Positions 9,018-22,786 of a stretch of 28,191 nucleotides of DNA are shown one piece after another. The stretch is taken from positions 1 through 28,191 of IMG/VR virus record IMGVR_UViG_3300035670_001027; one strand, written 5' to 3'. This stretch comes from a virus. Position 1 is the stretch's first letter, and every line of letters starts with the position of its first letter. The position numbers were made by a program, and so were the translations under genes. The notes under the pieces were generated by a model. The model worked only from the letters and a program-made list of their open reading frames with translations. It did not search any database and was not told the DNA's origin.

Positions 9018-9263
9018 ATGGAAAACGTTGAAAGCTTGTGTGCAATAGATATGCGTTTGATTTTGAAAATGATGGACGCACTCGATGATATTTCGCATGA
9101 AGGAATGAACGCCGGGTTTCGCTTTTCTGGTAGCATCGAGGTCTTCGATGAGGGCCATTTAAAGGGCGTGATTCAATTGGATGAAGATCTGACGGTTTAC
9201 GTTCCAGCGTCATGTCGTGACAGCATTCCGGTTATTGAAGCAGAAAGCGACGGTGCGAAGTGA
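9018..9263 (+). CDS. Hypothetical acidic protein
   Basis: ATG 9018 is chosen since GGGAGG lies at 9004-9009 just upstream. The 81-residue product begins MENVESLCAIDMRLILKMMD, is acidic throughout and probably alpha/beta. Acidic small proteins in phage early regions are sometimes DNA mimics; nothing here proves that. The stop overlaps the GTG start of the exonuclease gene by 4 bases. Confidence 0.6.
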   Translation: MENVESLCAIDMRLILKMMDALDDISHEGMNAGFRFSGSIEVFDEGHLKGVIQLDEDLTVYVPASCRDSIPVIEAESDGAK

Positions 9264-10066
9264 ACTACTACGAGATCGACGCACTAAGCAACAGTTCGCT
9301 CTCAGTGCTTGCGAAGAGTCCGCAAAGTTTCCATGCTCAGTACGTCGCAAAGACGATGAAGGGTGAGGAAACTGAGGCGATGGCGTTGGGTTCAGCGGTT
9401 CACATGCTTGCATTAGAGCCGCATCGGTTTGAGCAAGAGTACGACGTGCACGAAGGGCCGATTAATCCAAAGACGGGCAAGCCGTACGGACGCGATACCA
9501 AAGCGTTTGAAGAGTGGTTGACAACAATCGACTCTCAGTCAAAGTGGATCATGCGTGACGAGCTTGACGAGGTGAAGAAGATTGCCAGTGCGTTTCAATC
9601 GCATGCTACAATCGCTGACTTAATGAACCACGATTGCGACTTTGAGCGGCCTTACTCGATGACGTGGAGACATGATGACGGATGGACGACCTCGCTCAAG
9701 TGCAAGCCGGATTGCGTCATTGTCGGAGAATCGGTCATCCTCGACCTAAAGACAACGCAAGACGCAAGCCCTAGCAAGTGGCAGTGGTCAGCGTTGGATT
9801 ACGGTTATCATCGGCAAGCCGCGATTTACCTCGATACACTGGAGGCTATGTACAACAAGCCGTTCCGGTTTTTGTTTGGAGTTGTTTCGAAGAATGAGCC
9901 GTACGAAGTCGCGGTTTACAAGTTGAGCGAAGATGACATTGAGCGCGGTCGGGACGAGTACCATGCACTAATCGCAGAGTACCGGCGAAGAGTCGAAGAA
10001 AACGACTGGCTTGCAGATTGGCAGGTCGGCGAGGTTGTATTGTGTTTACCATCTAGGAGGCGATAA
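9260..10066 (+). CDS. RecE-like PD-(D/E)XK exonuclease
   Basis: A 268-residue protein starting at GTG 9260. It has the features of the RecE C-terminal nuclease (DUF3799-type PD-(D/E)XK): LGSAVHMLALEP at residues 43-54 with the motif His48, KPD at 149-151, a DLK catalytic motif at 162-164 (VILDLKTTQDAS), and YGYHRQAAIYLD at 181-192. Such enzymes chew one strand of double-stranded DNA 5' to 3' and leave single strands for annealing. The RecT gene follows with a one-base overlap, the classic exonuclease-annealase pair. The length fits a stand-alone nuclease domain rather than the longer E. coli RecE. Confidence 0.9.
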   Translation: MNYYEIDALSNSSLSVLAKSPQSFHAQYVAKTMKGEETEAMALGSAVHMLALEPHRFEQEYDVHEGPINPKTGKPYGRDTKAFEEWLTTIDSQSKWIMRDELDEVKKIASAFQSHATIADLMNHDCDFERPYSMTWRHDDGWTTSLKCKPDCVIVGESVILDLKTTQDASPSKWQWSALDYGYHRQAAIYLDTLEAMYNKPFRFLFGVVSKNEPYEVAVYKLSEDDIERGRDEYHALIAEYRRRVEENDWLADWQVGEVVLCLPSRRR

Positions 10067-10941
10067 TGAGCGAGAAGACAGAACAGCAAGCCGAAGCGGC
10101 GGTTGTTGAGGCACCTAAGGAAATCGCAAAGCGGCAAAGCCCGGCGCAGAAATTTCGGATGCAGGTTTACCAGACAGCTGGTAGCCTTTTGTCGAGTTGG
10201 GTCGGTGACGACAAAGCGAGAGAGGCGGCAGGACGTCTTAGCGTCGCGTTGGCAGCTTCGGCATCATCTGCCCGCAAGCCGGACGACTTCTTCGATTGCA
10301 CGCCTGAGAGCGTTGCTAGGGTGGTTGCGACGAGTGCCCTAACTGGTATCATGCCGTCCACAGGTGCAGCAAGTTTAGCGTATGCGATCCCGCGAAGACC
10401 TCGCAAGGGCGAGCAACCGCAACTCCAGTACATGCTTAGTCATCGCGGTATTAACGCACTTGCAAACCGTGCGGGGTTGCACATGCTTGCAATACCGATC
10501 AGTTACAGCGACGAAATCGAAGTTGCGGACAGTGGCGAGGTCAAGGTTAAGTCGATTGACATTGACAATCCACCGATGCGAGAGGATGAGTTGCGTGGCG
10601 TTGTCGTGCAGGTCAAGCGGCTTGAAACCGGGCTTATCGTTGCGACTGGATGGGTTGCAAAGAAACTCATCATTGAGCGGCGGCAAGGTTCGGATGGCTA
10701 CAAATTCGCGGAGCAAAACGAGTATGCGAAAGATAGCGATCCTTGGCATAAGTGGTTTGTCGAGATGGCGATGAAGACAGCAATGCACTACGCGATCAGT
10801 CGCGGTTGGTGCGTGATTGATGATACCGAAGCAGTCAGGGCGTTGTCGGCTGATGTTGCTGATGACGTCATCGACGTTGAGTCAACTCCAGTTAAACGCG
10901 TTGGCGGCATCGTCGACGCGATGCGAAAAGAGTTCGAGTAG
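10066..10941 (+). CDS. recT: RecT-family single-strand annealing protein
   Basis: A 291-residue protein with RecT hallmarks: the segment SALTGIMPSTGAASLAYAIP near residues 90-109, LSHRGINALANRAG near 124-137, and PWHKWFVEMAMKTAMHYAIS near 225-244. It coats single-stranded DNA made by the exonuclease and anneals it to complementary strands. It overlaps the exonuclease gene by one base. The C-terminus is acidic with a short basic end. A 45-base T-rich gap separates it from the next gene. The length is near that of E. coli RecT (269 residues). Confidence 0.93.
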   Translation: MSEKTEQQAEAAVVEAPKEIAKRQSPAQKFRMQVYQTAGSLLSSWVGDDKAREAAGRLSVALAASASSARKPDDFFDCTPESVARVVATSALTGIMPSTGAASLAYAIPRRPRKGEQPQLQYMLSHRGINALANRAGLHMLAIPISYSDEIEVADSGEVKVKSIDIDNPPMREDELRGVVVQVKRLETGLIVATGWVAKKLIIERRQGSDGYKFAEQNEYAKDSDPWHKWFVEMAMKTAMHYAISRGWCVIDDTEAVRALSADVADDVIDVESTPVKRVGGIVDAMRKEFE

Positions 10942-12112: not shown

Positions 12113-13213
12113 ATGAAGGTCACAGTCCAGCGAATACCGTTTTTAAAGTCGCTCGAAATCGCGGCTTCGATTGTCGCAAGCAAGCCACAAAACGAAGTGC
12201 TGAGGTATGTCAAGTTTGCTTGCGACAGCAACAGGTTTACCCTTGAGGCAACCGATAACGAGTTGGCGATTTTGTGCAACGTGAAGCAATCCATACCGGA
12301 TTGCTCAAGTTACAAGGGCGGCAAAGCCCTGCTACTTCCCGCGAAGGTAATCCCAATCCTTAAAGATTGCGGCGGCGAGTCGGTTGATATTGAGGTAGAC
12401 AATCAACTGCGAATCACAACGCAATCGGGCGGCTTTACCTTGTCGATGCCCAATCCCGATGAGTTCCCAAGCGTTAAGATTGACGCGGCGGAAGGAGCGG
12501 CAGGCGTGCCAGGCGTTGCTCTTGCTGATGCGATTCGGCAAACGATCTACGCTACAGACTCGACATCAACGCGGTATCAACTCGGCGGCGTTTACTTCGA
12601 CATTGGCGAGCGGCTTACATGCGTTGCAACTGACGGAAGGCGGCTCGCTGTCTCATCCTGCCAGATTGCCGGCGAGGTAGCAGCGGTCAGCGGTATTGTG
12701 CCTATTCGCCCATTGCAAGCCGTATCACGCATTATCGCTGCGGAAGGATGCGGAGTGGACGTGATGATCGGTCACGCTTCGGCGGTGTTTGTATGCGGCG
12801 ACATATCGCTACAGACGCGATTAGTCGAGGGTAGATATCCAGACTGGCGGAAGGTTGTGCCGTCGACTGATGGAGCATCTACGCTCAAGTGCGATGCCGA
12901 AAAGTTTTTGAGCGTGGTACGCCAAGCCGCTATCGTCAATGATCAAGACAGTCGAGGCATTGACCTCGTAATCGGTAGCGGTGAACTGACAGCGACTGCA
13001 AAGACAGCCGAGGTTGGAGCGTCAAGCGTTGTGATGGGATGCGAGGCGGACACCGAAGCGAAGTTGACGGTCGATCACACGTACCTTGCCGACTTCCTTC
13101 GTTCGCTTGGTAAAGAGCAAACGGTTGAAGTTCGATACAAGCAATCAAGCGATCCGGTTGTATTGACATCCGGTGACGTTCTTGGGGTTATTATGCCAAT
13201 GGCGAGGGTGTAG
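12113..13213 (+). CDS. dnaN: DNA polymerase III beta sliding clamp (phage-encoded)
   Basis: A 366-residue protein, the normal length for bacterial beta clamp. Three tandem domains are visible. The first begins MKVTVQRIPFLKSLEIAASI and contains LEATDNELAI; the second contains CVATDGRRLAVSSCQ; the third begins about residue 250. The segment VEGRYPDWRKVVP (about residue 240) and the C-terminal VIMPMARV are hallmark clamp motifs; the MPMAR tail forms part of the peptide-binding pocket. It would encircle DNA and tether polymerases and repair proteins. Phage-encoded beta clamps are uncommon. GGAGGTTAGGT precedes the ATG. It lies with recombination and helicase genes, consistent with replication. 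Confidence 0.93.
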   Translation: MKVTVQRIPFLKSLEIAASIVASKPQNEVLRYVKFACDSNRFTLEATDNELAILCNVKQSIPDCSSYKGGKALLLPAKVIPILKDCGGESVDIEVDNQLRITTQSGGFTLSMPNPDEFPSVKIDAAEGAAGVPGVALADAIRQTIYATDSTSTRYQLGGVYFDIGERLTCVATDGRRLAVSSCQIAGEVAAVSGIVPIRPLQAVSRIIAAEGCGVDVMIGHASAVFVCGDISLQTRLVEGRYPDWRKVVPSTDGASTLKCDAEKFLSVVRQAAIVNDQDSRGIDLVIGSGELTATAKTAEVGASSVVMGCEADTEAKLTVDHTYLADFLRSLGKEQTVEVRYKQSSDPVVLTSGDVLGVIMPMARV

Positions 13214-18797: not shown

Positions 18798-19274
18798 ATG
18801 GAAAAACCAATCTACAACGGGCGATACATCGCCTACAGTAACGGTGACATAGCAAACGCGGTGACGGGGCGAATCCTATCCGGCGGCAAGAACTCTAAAG
18901 GCTACTTGACGGTGAGCCTTTACGATGGATCAAGCCCAAAGCGGCCTAGATCGTTCCTCGTTCATCGCCTGATTGCACAAGCGTTTCTAGGTGACGACGA
19001 CGGCAAGCAGATCAATCACAAGAACGGCAACAAACTCGACAACCGAGTCGAGAATCTTGAGTGGGTGACAAATCAAGAAAACGTCGATCACGCTCGGTTT
19101 GTTCTCGGCAAGGATGGATTCGGCATCAAGTCTCCTCGATGCAAGATTGCACCGGAGATTGTCGAGCGTATCAAACAACGCGACAGGACAGCCCCTTTAT
19201 GGGCGGCTGAGTTGGGTTGCAGTGTGGATTACATCTATCAAATCAGATCAGGCCGGTATCGGTCGAGAGGGTAA
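18798..19274 (+). CDS. NUMOD4/HNH homing endonuclease
   Basis: A 158-residue protein. The N-terminal half has a NUMOD4-type pattern (YIAYSNGDIANAVTGRILSG...KGYLTVSL). It is followed by an HNH core: VHRLIAQAFLG, INHKNGNKLDNRVENLEW and VTNQENVDHA, with the histidines and asparagines of the HNH_3 family. The C-terminal part (CKIAPEIVERIKQRDRTAPLWAAELGCSVDYIYQI) is a helix-turn-helix DNA-binding domain. Such enzymes cut DNA and spread themselves. It has its own leader after the terminator, with GTGACGAGTGAG before ATG. No interrupted gene or intron is evident, so it is probably free-standing. Confidence 0.9.
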   Translation: MEKPIYNGRYIAYSNGDIANAVTGRILSGGKNSKGYLTVSLYDGSSPKRPRSFLVHRLIAQAFLGDDDGKQINHKNGNKLDNRVENLEWVTNQENVDHARFVLGKDGFGIKSPRCKIAPEIVERIKQRDRTAPLWAAELGCSVDYIYQIRSGRYRSRG

Positions 19275-19437: not shown

Positions 19438-20319
19438 ATGGCAGGCGATTGGATCAAGATGCGAACGGATCTTTACCGAGATCCAAAAGTCTGCCTGATG
19501 GCGGACATGCTCAGCGACGAAAAGGGCGAATTGTCGCGTTACGTGTCACAGCAAACGCAACGTAACATGACCGTAACGCGTAACGTAACGCGTAACGCTT
19601 GCGTTGGTGCGTTGTTATCGGTGTGGGGCGTCATGCGTCATCGCGGAGTGCGAGTTGACGACGATTTGAAGTGCTTCGGTGTGGGGCTTTGGGTACTCGA
19701 TGACATTGCCGACATGCCCGGCTTTGGGTCAGCGATGGCGGCGGCTAGGTGGGTTGTTGAAACCGACGAAGGATTGATTTTCCCAAGGTTTTTTGATGAA
19801 TACAACGTAGAGCCAGACGGAAAACAGAAGTCTAAAAACGCAGAGCGACAAGCCCGATACAGAGAGAAAAAGCGGCTCGAATCAGAGCCTGAAAGTAACG
19901 TAACAAGTAACGTAACGCGTAACGTTACAGTAACGCCTAGAATAGAGAAGAGTAGAGTAGAGAAGAGTATTAATAACCCCCTACCCCCTAAGGGGACAAG
20001 TAAAGCCGCTTCGCTAGGCGAATGGGACATACCAGACGGTTTCGACACTCCAGAGGTGAGACAGGCCCTAGCAGACTTCGAGGCAATGCGAGCAAGCATC
20101 GGAAAGAAGATCAAAAGCCGGGCGAACGTCTCCAAGTCCCTGAGAGGCTACGACAGCCCGTCTCACTTGGTGTATGCGATTGAGTTTGCAATTGGCAATG
20201 AGTACCAAGGTATCAAGCCGGAGTACAGGCCAAGTAACGTAGGGCAAAGTGGCTACAACTCACCCAAGCCCAAGAAATCAACCTTACCCGTAATCGACGA
20301 AAACTGGGAGCCTGCTTAA
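19438..20319 (+). CDS. Replication initiator-like protein
   Basis: A 293-residue protein that starts MAGDWIKMRTDLYRDPKVCL, a beginning I recognise from phage replication proteins of the DnaD/replisome-organiser type. A winged-helix-like N-terminal domain (to about 125) is followed by a basic helix KNAERQARYREKKR (134-147) and a low-complexity linker encoding NVT repeats and RIEKSRVEKS, then a C-terminal domain. The linker and a segment near residue 43 are encoded by GTAACG repeats, so the gene probably carries the origin, like lambda gene O. The next gene is DnaB helicase, overlapped by one base. Its role would be to melt the origin and load the helicase. Function is inferred from layout and repeats. 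Confidence 0.75.
   Translation: MAGDWIKMRTDLYRDPKVCLMADMLSDEKGELSRYVSQQTQRNMTVTRNVTRNACVGALLSVWGVMRHRGVRVDDDLKCFGVGLWVLDDIADMPGFGSAMAAARWVVETDEGLIFPRFFDEYNVEPDGKQKSKNAERQARYREKKRLESEPESNVTSNVTRNVTVTPRIEKSRVEKSINNPLPPKGTSKAASLGEWDIPDGFDTPEVRQALADFEAMRASIGKKIKSRANVSKSLRGYDSPSHLVYAIEFAIGNEYQGIKPEYRPSNVGQSGYNSPKPKKSTLPVIDENWEPA
19537..19977 (+). other. Putative replication origin: GTAACG iterons inside initiator gene
   Basis: Cluster 1: CGTTAC (reverse, 19537-19542), then GTAACA/G at 19562, 19573, 19580, 19585 and 19592. Cluster 2: GTAACG/A at 19895, 19900, 19907, 19912, 19919 and 19930, plus reverse CGTTAC at 19923-19928. Immediately after comes a purine/AT-rich run with repeated AGAGTAGAG-type units and TATTAATAA (19938-19977), which could be the unwinding element. 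The arrangement mirrors lambda ori in gene O. Confidence 0.65.
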
Positions 20320-21635
20320 TGCCACTTCACCCAAGCCACTTTGAGACATGCAAAGCAATCGAGGAGCAACTGATTGCGGGTATCATCCTTCGGCCGGGAG
20401 ACTTCTACGCGGTCGCTGATGCACTCGATAGTTCCGACTTCATCCATCAGCCGATGGCGGACGCATGGGCAGCATTCCAAGCGATGTCGAAAGACGGCGT
20501 TGAGTTTCACCGCGAATCGGTGATGCTGTCCGAACTTCGCAAGCGTGGAGTTTTTGACAAGATCGGCGGCGATGTTGGATTCGCCGACTTGGTTACAAAG
20601 ACCGTACCGGGCCACATCGTCTACCACTCGGAGCAGGTCGCGGAATGGGCGGAGCGTCGGCGGGTACTGTTGGCTTTAGAGTGGGCGGTTACGGAGGCGT
20701 CATCGCTGGCGTTCGATCCTGACAGCGTGGTCAGTAATGCTCAACAGCGATTGCTCAAGGCTAAAAGCATTGGCGGCGAAGATGTTCAGCACCTTGGCGA
20801 CTTGATGGGCGATTACCTGGAGACTCTCGAAGATGCGAGAGCCAACAAGCGGACGGCGGCGGTAGTGCGGACTGGGTTCAGGGAAATTGACATGGCTCTA
20901 AGTGGCGGGATACCTTTAGGATCCTACGCAATCCTTGCCGCTAGACCGTCGATAGGCAAGTCGGCTCTTGCGATGGATATCGCACAAAACGCAGCGGCAA
21001 ACAACGATCACACGTTGTTCGTATCGCTTGAAATGAGCAATCAGCAAATCGGCCAGCGGCAATTTGCGAAGAATGCCGACATGCGGATCAGTGAAATGCA
21101 AAACGCCTCGTACACCGATGCCGATTGCTTGCGAATGCTCAAGGCTTGCAGCGAAGCGAAGCAACTACCGCTTTACGTGTGGCAAGCGGCAGGTATATCG
21201 ATGGCTCGCATCGAATCGCGGCTAAGGGCCGAAGTTGCCAAGCGTGGCGTGAGACTCGTTATCGTGGACTACCTTGGGCTCATTCGCGGTAGCAGTCCAC
21301 ATCAAAAGATTTACGAGCGGGTGACGCAGATTAGCGGCGAACTTGCGAGAGTCAGCAAGCAGCTCAACATTGCATTGTTGGTGCTATGCCAACTCGGCCG
21401 GGCGGCGGAGGGTGAAGAGCCTAGTATCAACATGCTGCGGGATTCCGGAGCCATTGAGCAGGACGCGGATATTGTGATGCTCTTGCACCGCGAAAGCCGA
21501 GACGCTCATGATGCCGCGGTATTGCTTGAGAAGCAGCGTAACGGCAAGGTAGGGCGGTTTAACCTTAAGTTCGACGGCAAGCGGTTTAGCGATGCGTTTC
21601 GAGACGCGGAAACATTTCACGGAGACTTTAAATGA
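20319..21635 (+). CDS. dnaB: Replicative DNA helicase, DnaB family
   Basis: A 438-residue protein. The N-terminal helical domain (LIAGIILRPGDFYAVADALDS, about 18-40) matches the DnaB N-domain. The RecA-like ATPase has Walker A AARPSIGKSALAMD at 207-220, a conserved FVSLEMS at about 234-240, Walker B LVIVDYLGLI, and the end signature LRDSGAIEQDADIVMLLHR followed by EKQRNGKVG and FDG. It unwinds DNA ahead of the replication fork as a hexamer. The start ATG overlaps the initiator stop by one base. The length is slightly shorter than E. coli DnaB (471). Together with the initiator and the beta clamp it forms the replication module. Confidence 0.95.
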   Translation: MPLHPSHFETCKAIEEQLIAGIILRPGDFYAVADALDSSDFIHQPMADAWAAFQAMSKDGVEFHRESVMLSELRKRGVFDKIGGDVGFADLVTKTVPGHIVYHSEQVAEWAERRRVLLALEWAVTEASSLAFDPDSVVSNAQQRLLKAKSIGGEDVQHLGDLMGDYLETLEDARANKRTAAVVRTGFREIDMALSGGIPLGSYAILAARPSIGKSALAMDIAQNAAANNDHTLFVSLEMSNQQIGQRQFAKNADMRISEMQNASYTDADCLRMLKACSEAKQLPLYVWQAAGISMARIESRLRAEVAKRGVRLVIVDYLGLIRGSSPHQKIYERVTQISGELARVSKQLNIALLVLCQLGRAAEGEEPSINMLRDSGAIEQDADIVMLLHRESRDAHDAAVLLEKQRNGKVGRFNLKFDGKRFSDAFRDAETFHGDFK

Positions 21636-21853: not shown

Positions 21854-22281
21854 GCGAACGTGAATTCAAGGTTGGGGATCGGGTGCGGGTTGTCACCGCT
21901 GAAAGCCCGCTGATTGGTAAACTCGGCACGGTCATCGAATGCAACGAACGAGATGTTTACGTGCTTGCGTCGATTGACGGGGTTTGCGCGTCGCACATCT
22001 GGTTTGCTAGGTGTAATCTGGAGCTAGTCGAACCTGCCCCAACTGTCAAGGAATGCTTGACAACTGACAATGTCAACCATCCACCGCACTACAACCAAGG
22101 TGGGATCGAGTGTATCGAGGCGATCAAGGCGGCGTTAGGCGATGGCTTCGTAGCGTACCTTCGCGGTAACGTGATGAAGTACCTTTGGCGATGCGAGCTT
22201 AAAGGCGGCCTCGAAGACCTGAAAAAAGCGGCGTGGTATTTAGATCGAGCGATTAAGGAGATGGAGGTGACCAGTGAGTAA
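21850..22281 (+). CDS. DUF3310 protein with N-terminal KOW-like part
   Basis: A 143-residue protein. The N-terminal 60 residues (FKVGDRVRVVTAESPLIGKL) look like a KOW/SH3-type barrel. The C-terminal half is the DUF3310 domain: VNHPPHYNQGGIECIEAIKA at 75-94, GNVMKYLWR at 106-114 and KGGLEDLKKAAWYLDRAI at 118-135. DUF3310 is widespread in phages and has been annotated as nucleotide-kinase-like; its biochemical role is unproven. It overlaps neighbours by 4 and 8 bases. Confidence 0.88.
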   Translation: MSEREFKVGDRVRVVTAESPLIGKLGTVIECNERDVYVLASIDGVCASHIWFARCNLELVEPAPTVKECLTTDNVNHPPHYNQGGIECIEAIKAALGDGFVAYLRGNVMKYLWRCELKGGLEDLKKAAWYLDRAIKEMEVTSE

Positions 22282-22786
22282 AAACATAGTTCTCGGCATT
22301 GACCCAGGGCCGAAAGAACATGCTTTTGTGTGGTGGGATTGCGACGAACAGCGGGTTATCCAACTTGACACGTTTTCGAGTTTCATTCGTTTTACCGAGT
22401 GGGAAAAACGCGAGATGCTCGCAAAGGTCAAGACCGTTGCCTGCGAGTGGATCGAGTCGTACGGCATGGCTGTCGGCCAGGAAGTCTTTCGCACTGTTGC
22501 CGGTATTGGATGGCTAGCCGGGACGATTGGCACTGAGGTTAGGTTGGTGCCACGCAAGGCGGTCAAAATGCACTTGTGCAACTCGATGAGGGCGAAGGAT
22601 GCGAACATTCGCCAAGCGTTGATTGACCGCTTCGGAGTCGTGGGCACCAAGAAAGCACCGGGGCCGCTATTTGGAGTCAGTAGCCACTACTGGGCGGCTC
22701 TTGCTGTTGCGGTTTACGCGGCGGAGACTCCGGCGAAAGACGGGGAGTTTTGGATTGAGGATCTGCGGAAGAGGTCTATCGTCTAG
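22274..22786 (+). CDS. RuvC-like Holliday junction resolvase/nuclease
   Basis: GTG 22274 starts a 170-residue protein with a RuvC-like RNase H fold. Motifs: VLGIDPGP (catalytic Asp10), CEWIESYGM (Glu58 or Glu61), VRLVPRKAVKMHL and KDANIRQALIDRFG (Asp109) and SHYWAALAVAVY (His138). In RuvC the last motif usually carries an additional Asp; here Ala fills that place, so the metal site may differ. Likely substrate: branched recombination or replication intermediates, resolved before packaging. It ends the replication operon; a promoter follows 8 bases later. Confidence 0.8.
   Translation: MSKNIVLGIDPGPKEHAFVWWDCDEQRVIQLDTFSSFIRFTEWEKREMLAKVKTVACEWIESYGMAVGQEVFRTVAGIGWLAGTIGTEVRLVPRKAVKMHLCNSMRAKDANIRQALIDRFGVVGTKKAPGPLFGVSSHYWAALAVAVYAAETPAKDGEFWIEDLRKRSIV

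Follow-up and report, generated by a model that had tools for sequence, protein, structure and literature searches.

The question raised by this locus is whether the short repeats found inside a phage replication initiator gene mark the site at which replication of the phage genome begins. The window analysed here is a whole virus record of 28,191 bases, and the region 19537–19995 within it very probably represents the replication origin of the phage, embedded in its own initiator gene. This gene (19438–20319, forward strand) encodes a product of 293 aa which was identified by profile search as a replication initiation protein of PHROG 2509 (E 1.2e-27) and PHROG 9474 (E 2.4e-13). No Pfam match to the protein was found up to an E-value of 1, and a DnaT C-terminal domain was likewise not found at this threshold, so that the protein is not classed as DnaT-type. 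The initiator gene adjoins that of a DnaB-type replicative helicase (20319–21635, forward strand; Pfam DnaB_C, E 7e-59). A HNH_3 endonuclease gene (18798–19274) lies just 5' of the initiator gene, and is also present in relatives L003 and L030–L032 and absent from the collected loci of others. Other genes of the window include a phage-encoded DNA polymerase III beta sliding clamp (12113–13213, matching 3 of 3 Pfam domains), an Exonuclease VIII (RecE)-like gene (9260–10941) with a RecT-like annealing protein encoded directly after it, and a Holliday junction resolvase-like gene (22274–22786, PHROG 1770).

The first-pass annotation, made from the sequence alone, had noted two groups of the hexamer GTAACG/A within the initiator gene and had read them as the origin; all of these copies were confirmed. 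Cluster 1 (19537–19597, forward strand) is composed of one reverse copy at 19537 and five forward copies at 19562 (GTAACA), 19573, 19580, 19585 and 19592. Cluster 2 (19895–19935, forward strand), lying ~327 bp away, holds six forward copies at 19895, 19900 (GTAACA), 19907, 19912, 19919 and 19930 and one reverse copy at 19923. Tandem Repeats Finder reported period-12 arrays at 19572–19597 and 19893–19935. Across the 28-kb window GTAACG occurs 31 times where 12.2 would be expected, a count which none of 100 shuffles reached, and the densest 75-bp stretch for GTAACR, at 19895, contains seven copies, with third-order Markov simulations (n = 60) giving a maximum of three per 75 bp for GTAACR and five for any 6-mer. 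A scan of the entire record, which had been proposed as a check on the origin reading, found no other GTAACR cluster of comparable density. A GC-skew switch, also proposed as a check, was not seen at the site; this outcome is negative or uninformative, and is counted against the origin reading, as are the degenerate form of the window's own purine tract, the weak structural matches and the scarcity of upstream copies in some relatives (see below).

Repeats of this kind could instead be operators, through which the initiator or a phage repressor regulates transcription of the replication genes, with the origin located elsewhere. Short direct and inverted repeats can indeed be operators, and autoregulation by initiators is common. 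However, no copy of GTAACR was found between 18843 and 19537 and there is therefore none immediately upstream of the initiator gene, the record holds no other candidate origin cluster, and the association with the helicase gene and with the stem-loop and purine tract that adjoin cluster 2 (see below) fits an origin better. We consider the operator explanation to be highly unlikely.

As both clusters are coding, a further explanation is that they arose as a side effect of selection for a repetitive NVT or TRNVT peptide (e.g., one acting as a helix cap or flexible linker), with the DNA repeat simply following. The peptide VT..VT recurs in relatives, and cluster 1 sits in a folded region with constrained residues. 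Nevertheless, when amino acids were held fixed and codons were drawn from the phage's own usage (20,000 draws), cluster 1 gave a mean of 0.98 copies and a maximum of five against the six observed, and cluster 2 gave a mean of 1.79 and a maximum of six against the seven observed. These counts are out of reach of synonymous shuffling, and synonymous codon choice does not explain either cluster. A strong codon bias towards the motif was moreover confined to the clusters, with the 33 non-redundant relatives using CGT for 73% of arginines inside the clusters vs 21% outside, AGT for serine (59 vs 13%), GTA for valine (43 vs 14%) and ACG for threonine (68 vs 32%). Some copies in relatives lie on the opposite strand or encode a different residue (RYV or RDV in place of RNV) and still preserve a GTNAC-like DNA motif, and other branches have quite different peptides with DNA repeats of their own (GTGACG, GCGGAC or GTAGAC) at the same two places. 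We consider selection on the protein to be a highly unlikely explanation, and the origin reading is preferred.

The two clusters differ in the part of the protein which they encode. An AlphaFold2 model (27 aligned relatives) predicts a folded N-terminal domain at approximately residues 10–126, with pLDDT mostly near or above 90, and low confidence from about residue 154 onward, where the initiator is presumably disordered. In the folded domain, the codons of cluster 1 specify the first part of the helix of residues 48–69 together with the loop that precedes it, and those of cluster 2 specify a disordered linker. Searches of the N-terminal domain against the PDB with Foldseek and VIA-align gave only weak winged-helix matches (CprK, CRP). 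The VIA-align match to the winged-helix plasmid initiator 4pt7 (Z 3.8 over 81 residues) was tied with unrelated folds, ribosomal proteins among them, and no fold was assigned. Because likeness to solved structures is weak, a DNA-binding winged helix is plausible for this domain rather than demonstrated.

Relatives of the locus were gathered from viral contigs and bacterial genomes. Counts from several of the scans are to be read as at least the number given, the loci examined being among the matches listed rather than a random sample, and gene counts overstate the number of independent events because relatives are not independent samples. Both clusters are kept in homologs of the N-terminal domain down to ~40% protein identity. 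This persistence wherever the initiator domain is shared, on which the first-pass annotation had made its reading depend, together with the uniqueness of the clusters in the genome, supports the reading of these repeats as a replication origin. Beyond what had been noted earlier, a family-wide layout was found in which cluster 1 lies in the codons of the folded domain and cluster 2 in those of the disordered linker, followed by an in-frame (AGAGA)n tract and often by a stem-loop. This same layout, with group-specific spelling of the repeat, recurs in phages of many bacterial groups, cultured phages among them; Xanthomonas phage CP2, for instance, has copies of GTAACG at both places and then the tract. 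When the iteron-coding residues were masked, iteron class tracked the N-terminal tree (a quick build with many weak forks) with 12 changes vs 32.9 when shuffled, none of the 200 shuffles being as low.

The AT/purine-rich run which had been noted after the second cluster was also borne out. It begins with a degenerate polypurine pentamer tract (19939–19968, forward strand), reading AGAAT, AGAGA, AGAGT, AGAGT, AGAGA and AGAGT, which is presumed to be a strand-opening element, and ends in an AT box, TATTAATAA (19968–19976, forward strand). The 39 bases at 19938–19976 contain 11 G and no C (28% GC vs ~52% for the window) and qualify as an AT-rich unwinding element, although one built of purine pentamers and not of a plain AT stretch. 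Directly 3' of this is a C/G stem-loop, CCCCCTACCCCCTAAGGGG (19977–19995, forward strand), and Tandem Repeats Finder reported an AGAGA array at 19944–19967 and an ACCCCCT array at 19976–19990. The tract of the window is a degenerate version, in-frame and in the same pentamer register, of a near-invariant (AGAGA)n in relatives, most of which have AGAGAAGAGAAGAGAAGAGAAGA or a close version of it directly 3' of cluster 2. The tract codons AGA-GAA-GAG-AAG are identical in all 74 of the 74 genes encoding REEK.R, AGA making up 9% of arginine codons elsewhere, and the purine tract is fixed at the nucleotide level in these relatives. An exact 23-mer of the tract was found inside an ORF in 86 of the 86 loci examined among the matches in viral contigs, including initiators with unrelated N-termini, and a 19-base version occurs once each in a Kluyvera genome, a Citrobacter genome and phage epsilon15.

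Other simple repeats were searched for as controls. Matches to (GAA)n fell in miscellaneous genes, with no family above 3 of 62, and the non-purine pentamer (ACATA)n gave eight matches in the viral collection. The period-4 purine repeat (AAGG)n was rare as well, with 30 matches across the entire viral collection. ORFs held 18 of these, and some of the ORFs were initiators; therefore, initiators are not completely free of polypurine repeats with a different period. The permuted pentamer (AAAGG)n failed as a negative control, as it too is found within phage initiators, albeit other ones (65 of 75 being phrog_2562). Polypurine pentamer tracts of this (AAAGG)n type were observed inside the Lin1244_N/phrog_2562 initiators of numerous viral contigs (L394–L473).

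Local folding, aligned on the end of the tract in 95 genes, was enriched at two places, namely at cluster 2, where it is expected because the iterons are inverted there, and directly after the tract, where 26% of the genes fold with z < -2 against a background of ~2–3%. A CCCC..GGGG stem was rejected as a general feature, being limited to 24 of the 95 genes, with a stem-loop of variable sequence being more general. Three initiators of the swapped DUF1376 type (L019, L022 and L024) were seen to have a pyrimidine-rich coding strand, CTCCCTACTTCCTACTTCC, at approximately nt 450–490 of the gene, where others carry the purine tract.

The strongest evidence in the case for the origin comes from natural hybrids. 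In these (L019, L020, L022–L024, L026 and L030–L032) the C-terminal part of the initiator is 86–98% and DnaB 97–98% identical to that of the window, and the N-terminal domains are unrelated to that of the window, being of DUF1376 type in L022 and of a different MAGDWIK type in L030. GTAACG clusters are missing from the hybrids, which instead have two clusters of a repeat resembling TGCGAACGCA or GCTAACGC; these alternative repeats were recognised by visual inspection of the codons rather than by blind search. The left edge of the DNA shared with the hybrids falls at 19943–19969 of the window, at the purine tract. Conversely, L014–L018 keep the N-terminal domain and the iterons and differ in their C-terminal parts and downstream genes. 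Among relatives with the same N-terminal domain the downstream neighbour may be DnaB, Toprim-DnaB, an IstB/DnaC-type ATPase or an unassigned gene. The iteron thus travels with the N-terminal domain, since hybrids with another N-terminal domain carry another repeat, and the C-terminal part is co-inherited with the helicase gene. This change of repeat with a change of N-terminal domain lends indirect support to the binding proposed in the first-pass annotation. On the most economical interpretation, recognition of the iterons would belong to the N-terminal domain and the C-terminal part would serve the helicase.

In a test free of prior choice of motif, an iteron 6-mer was picked from cluster 2 alone and then counted upstream and downstream in 83 genes. 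Upstream it occurred 250 times, where synonymous shuffling would give 68.9, and downstream 21 times. Fewer than two upstream copies were found in 18 of the 83 relatives, some having few or none, and cluster 1 may therefore not be essential everywhere. It is conceivable that the origin consists of cluster 2 and the purine tract only, and that cluster 1 does something else, e.g., controls copy number by handcuffing or provides reserve binding sites. In lambda, only the iterons adjoining the AT-rich element are needed for unwinding (PMC7466680), and here a distance of 300 bp separates cluster 1 from the tract. Against this, cluster 1 with the same iteron is kept in most relatives, those with swapped N-terminal domains included, and replication of Stx-phage can require extra iterons that are weakly bound (PMC7466680). 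We regard this narrower origin as a tenable, though not the favoured, explanation, and retain both clusters as parts of the proposed origin.

We conclude that the origin is probably of the lambda-like intragenic iteron type, with unusual features. As in lambda gene O and its Shiga-toxin phage variants (PMC7466680), the initiator is encoded by the very sequence that contains the iterons, extra copies of which add codons; the origin sits mid-gene with several iterons beside an AT-rich element, to which the purine tract would correspond by position; and the initiator gene is beside one with a helicase function. Unlike lambda, the window has two separate clusters, one of them inside the codons of a folded N-terminal domain; purine pentamers form the adjacent element (in the family often followed by a stem-loop); and the neighbour of the initiator is DnaB itself rather than P. 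The likeness drawn here concerns layout and presumed mode of action; the match to the 'O-like' PHROG 678 (E 4.4e-5) covers residues 130–278 only and leaves out the N-terminal domain. Another counterpart is the initiation protein of Salmonella phage epsilon15 (NC_004775.2, 35179–35856), which has a homologous N-terminal domain and, within its gene, two iteron clusters (nt 54–105 and 333–373) with a purine tract directly 3' of the second. It differs in its iteron, GCGGAC, with two reverse and two forward copies per cluster, and in having a DnaT domain as its C-terminal part; the annotation shown for the record carries no origin mark. The pentamer tract may also be paralleled by the DnaA-trios and DnaD recognition element (motif 5'-TnnT-3') of Bacillus subtilis oriC, where short, repeated, strand-asymmetric motifs likewise occur in the unwinding region and one strand is recognised for helicase loading, in that case in a chromosomal and DnaA-dependent system (PMC10201434).

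In the mechanism proposed, the initiator N-terminal domain would bind the GTAACR iterons of both clusters, which may be bridged across the intervening DNA into a single nucleoprotein complex. This complex would open the duplex next to cluster 2, at the AT box and the purine-rich pentamers, and recruitment of the helicase (in this phage the DnaB encoded by the adjacent gene) would fall to the C-terminal part, which is exchangeable. The roles assigned to cluster 1, the tract and the stem-loop are those that we infer.

In the literature searched, which covered few subscription journals, neither the pentamer tract nor an intragenic origin with two clusters was found to be described, and this is weak evidence of novelty. 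There is perhaps an even chance that these loci represent a widespread and unrecognised class of phage origin, in which an iteron array is duplicated in the N-terminal codons of the initiator, and a period-5 polypurine tract, common at the nucleotide level to initiators with unrelated N-terminal domains, acts as a strand-opening or helicase-loading element into which domains of different iteron specificity plug. Why such a tract should be common to unrelated phage initiators is a testable question which the finding raises. The parts of the layout are very clear in epsilon15, a cultured phage, and the natural swaps of N-terminal domain and iteron are ready-made specificity experiments. Origins and their iteron specificities would then be readable directly from the initiator genes of many phages and prophages.
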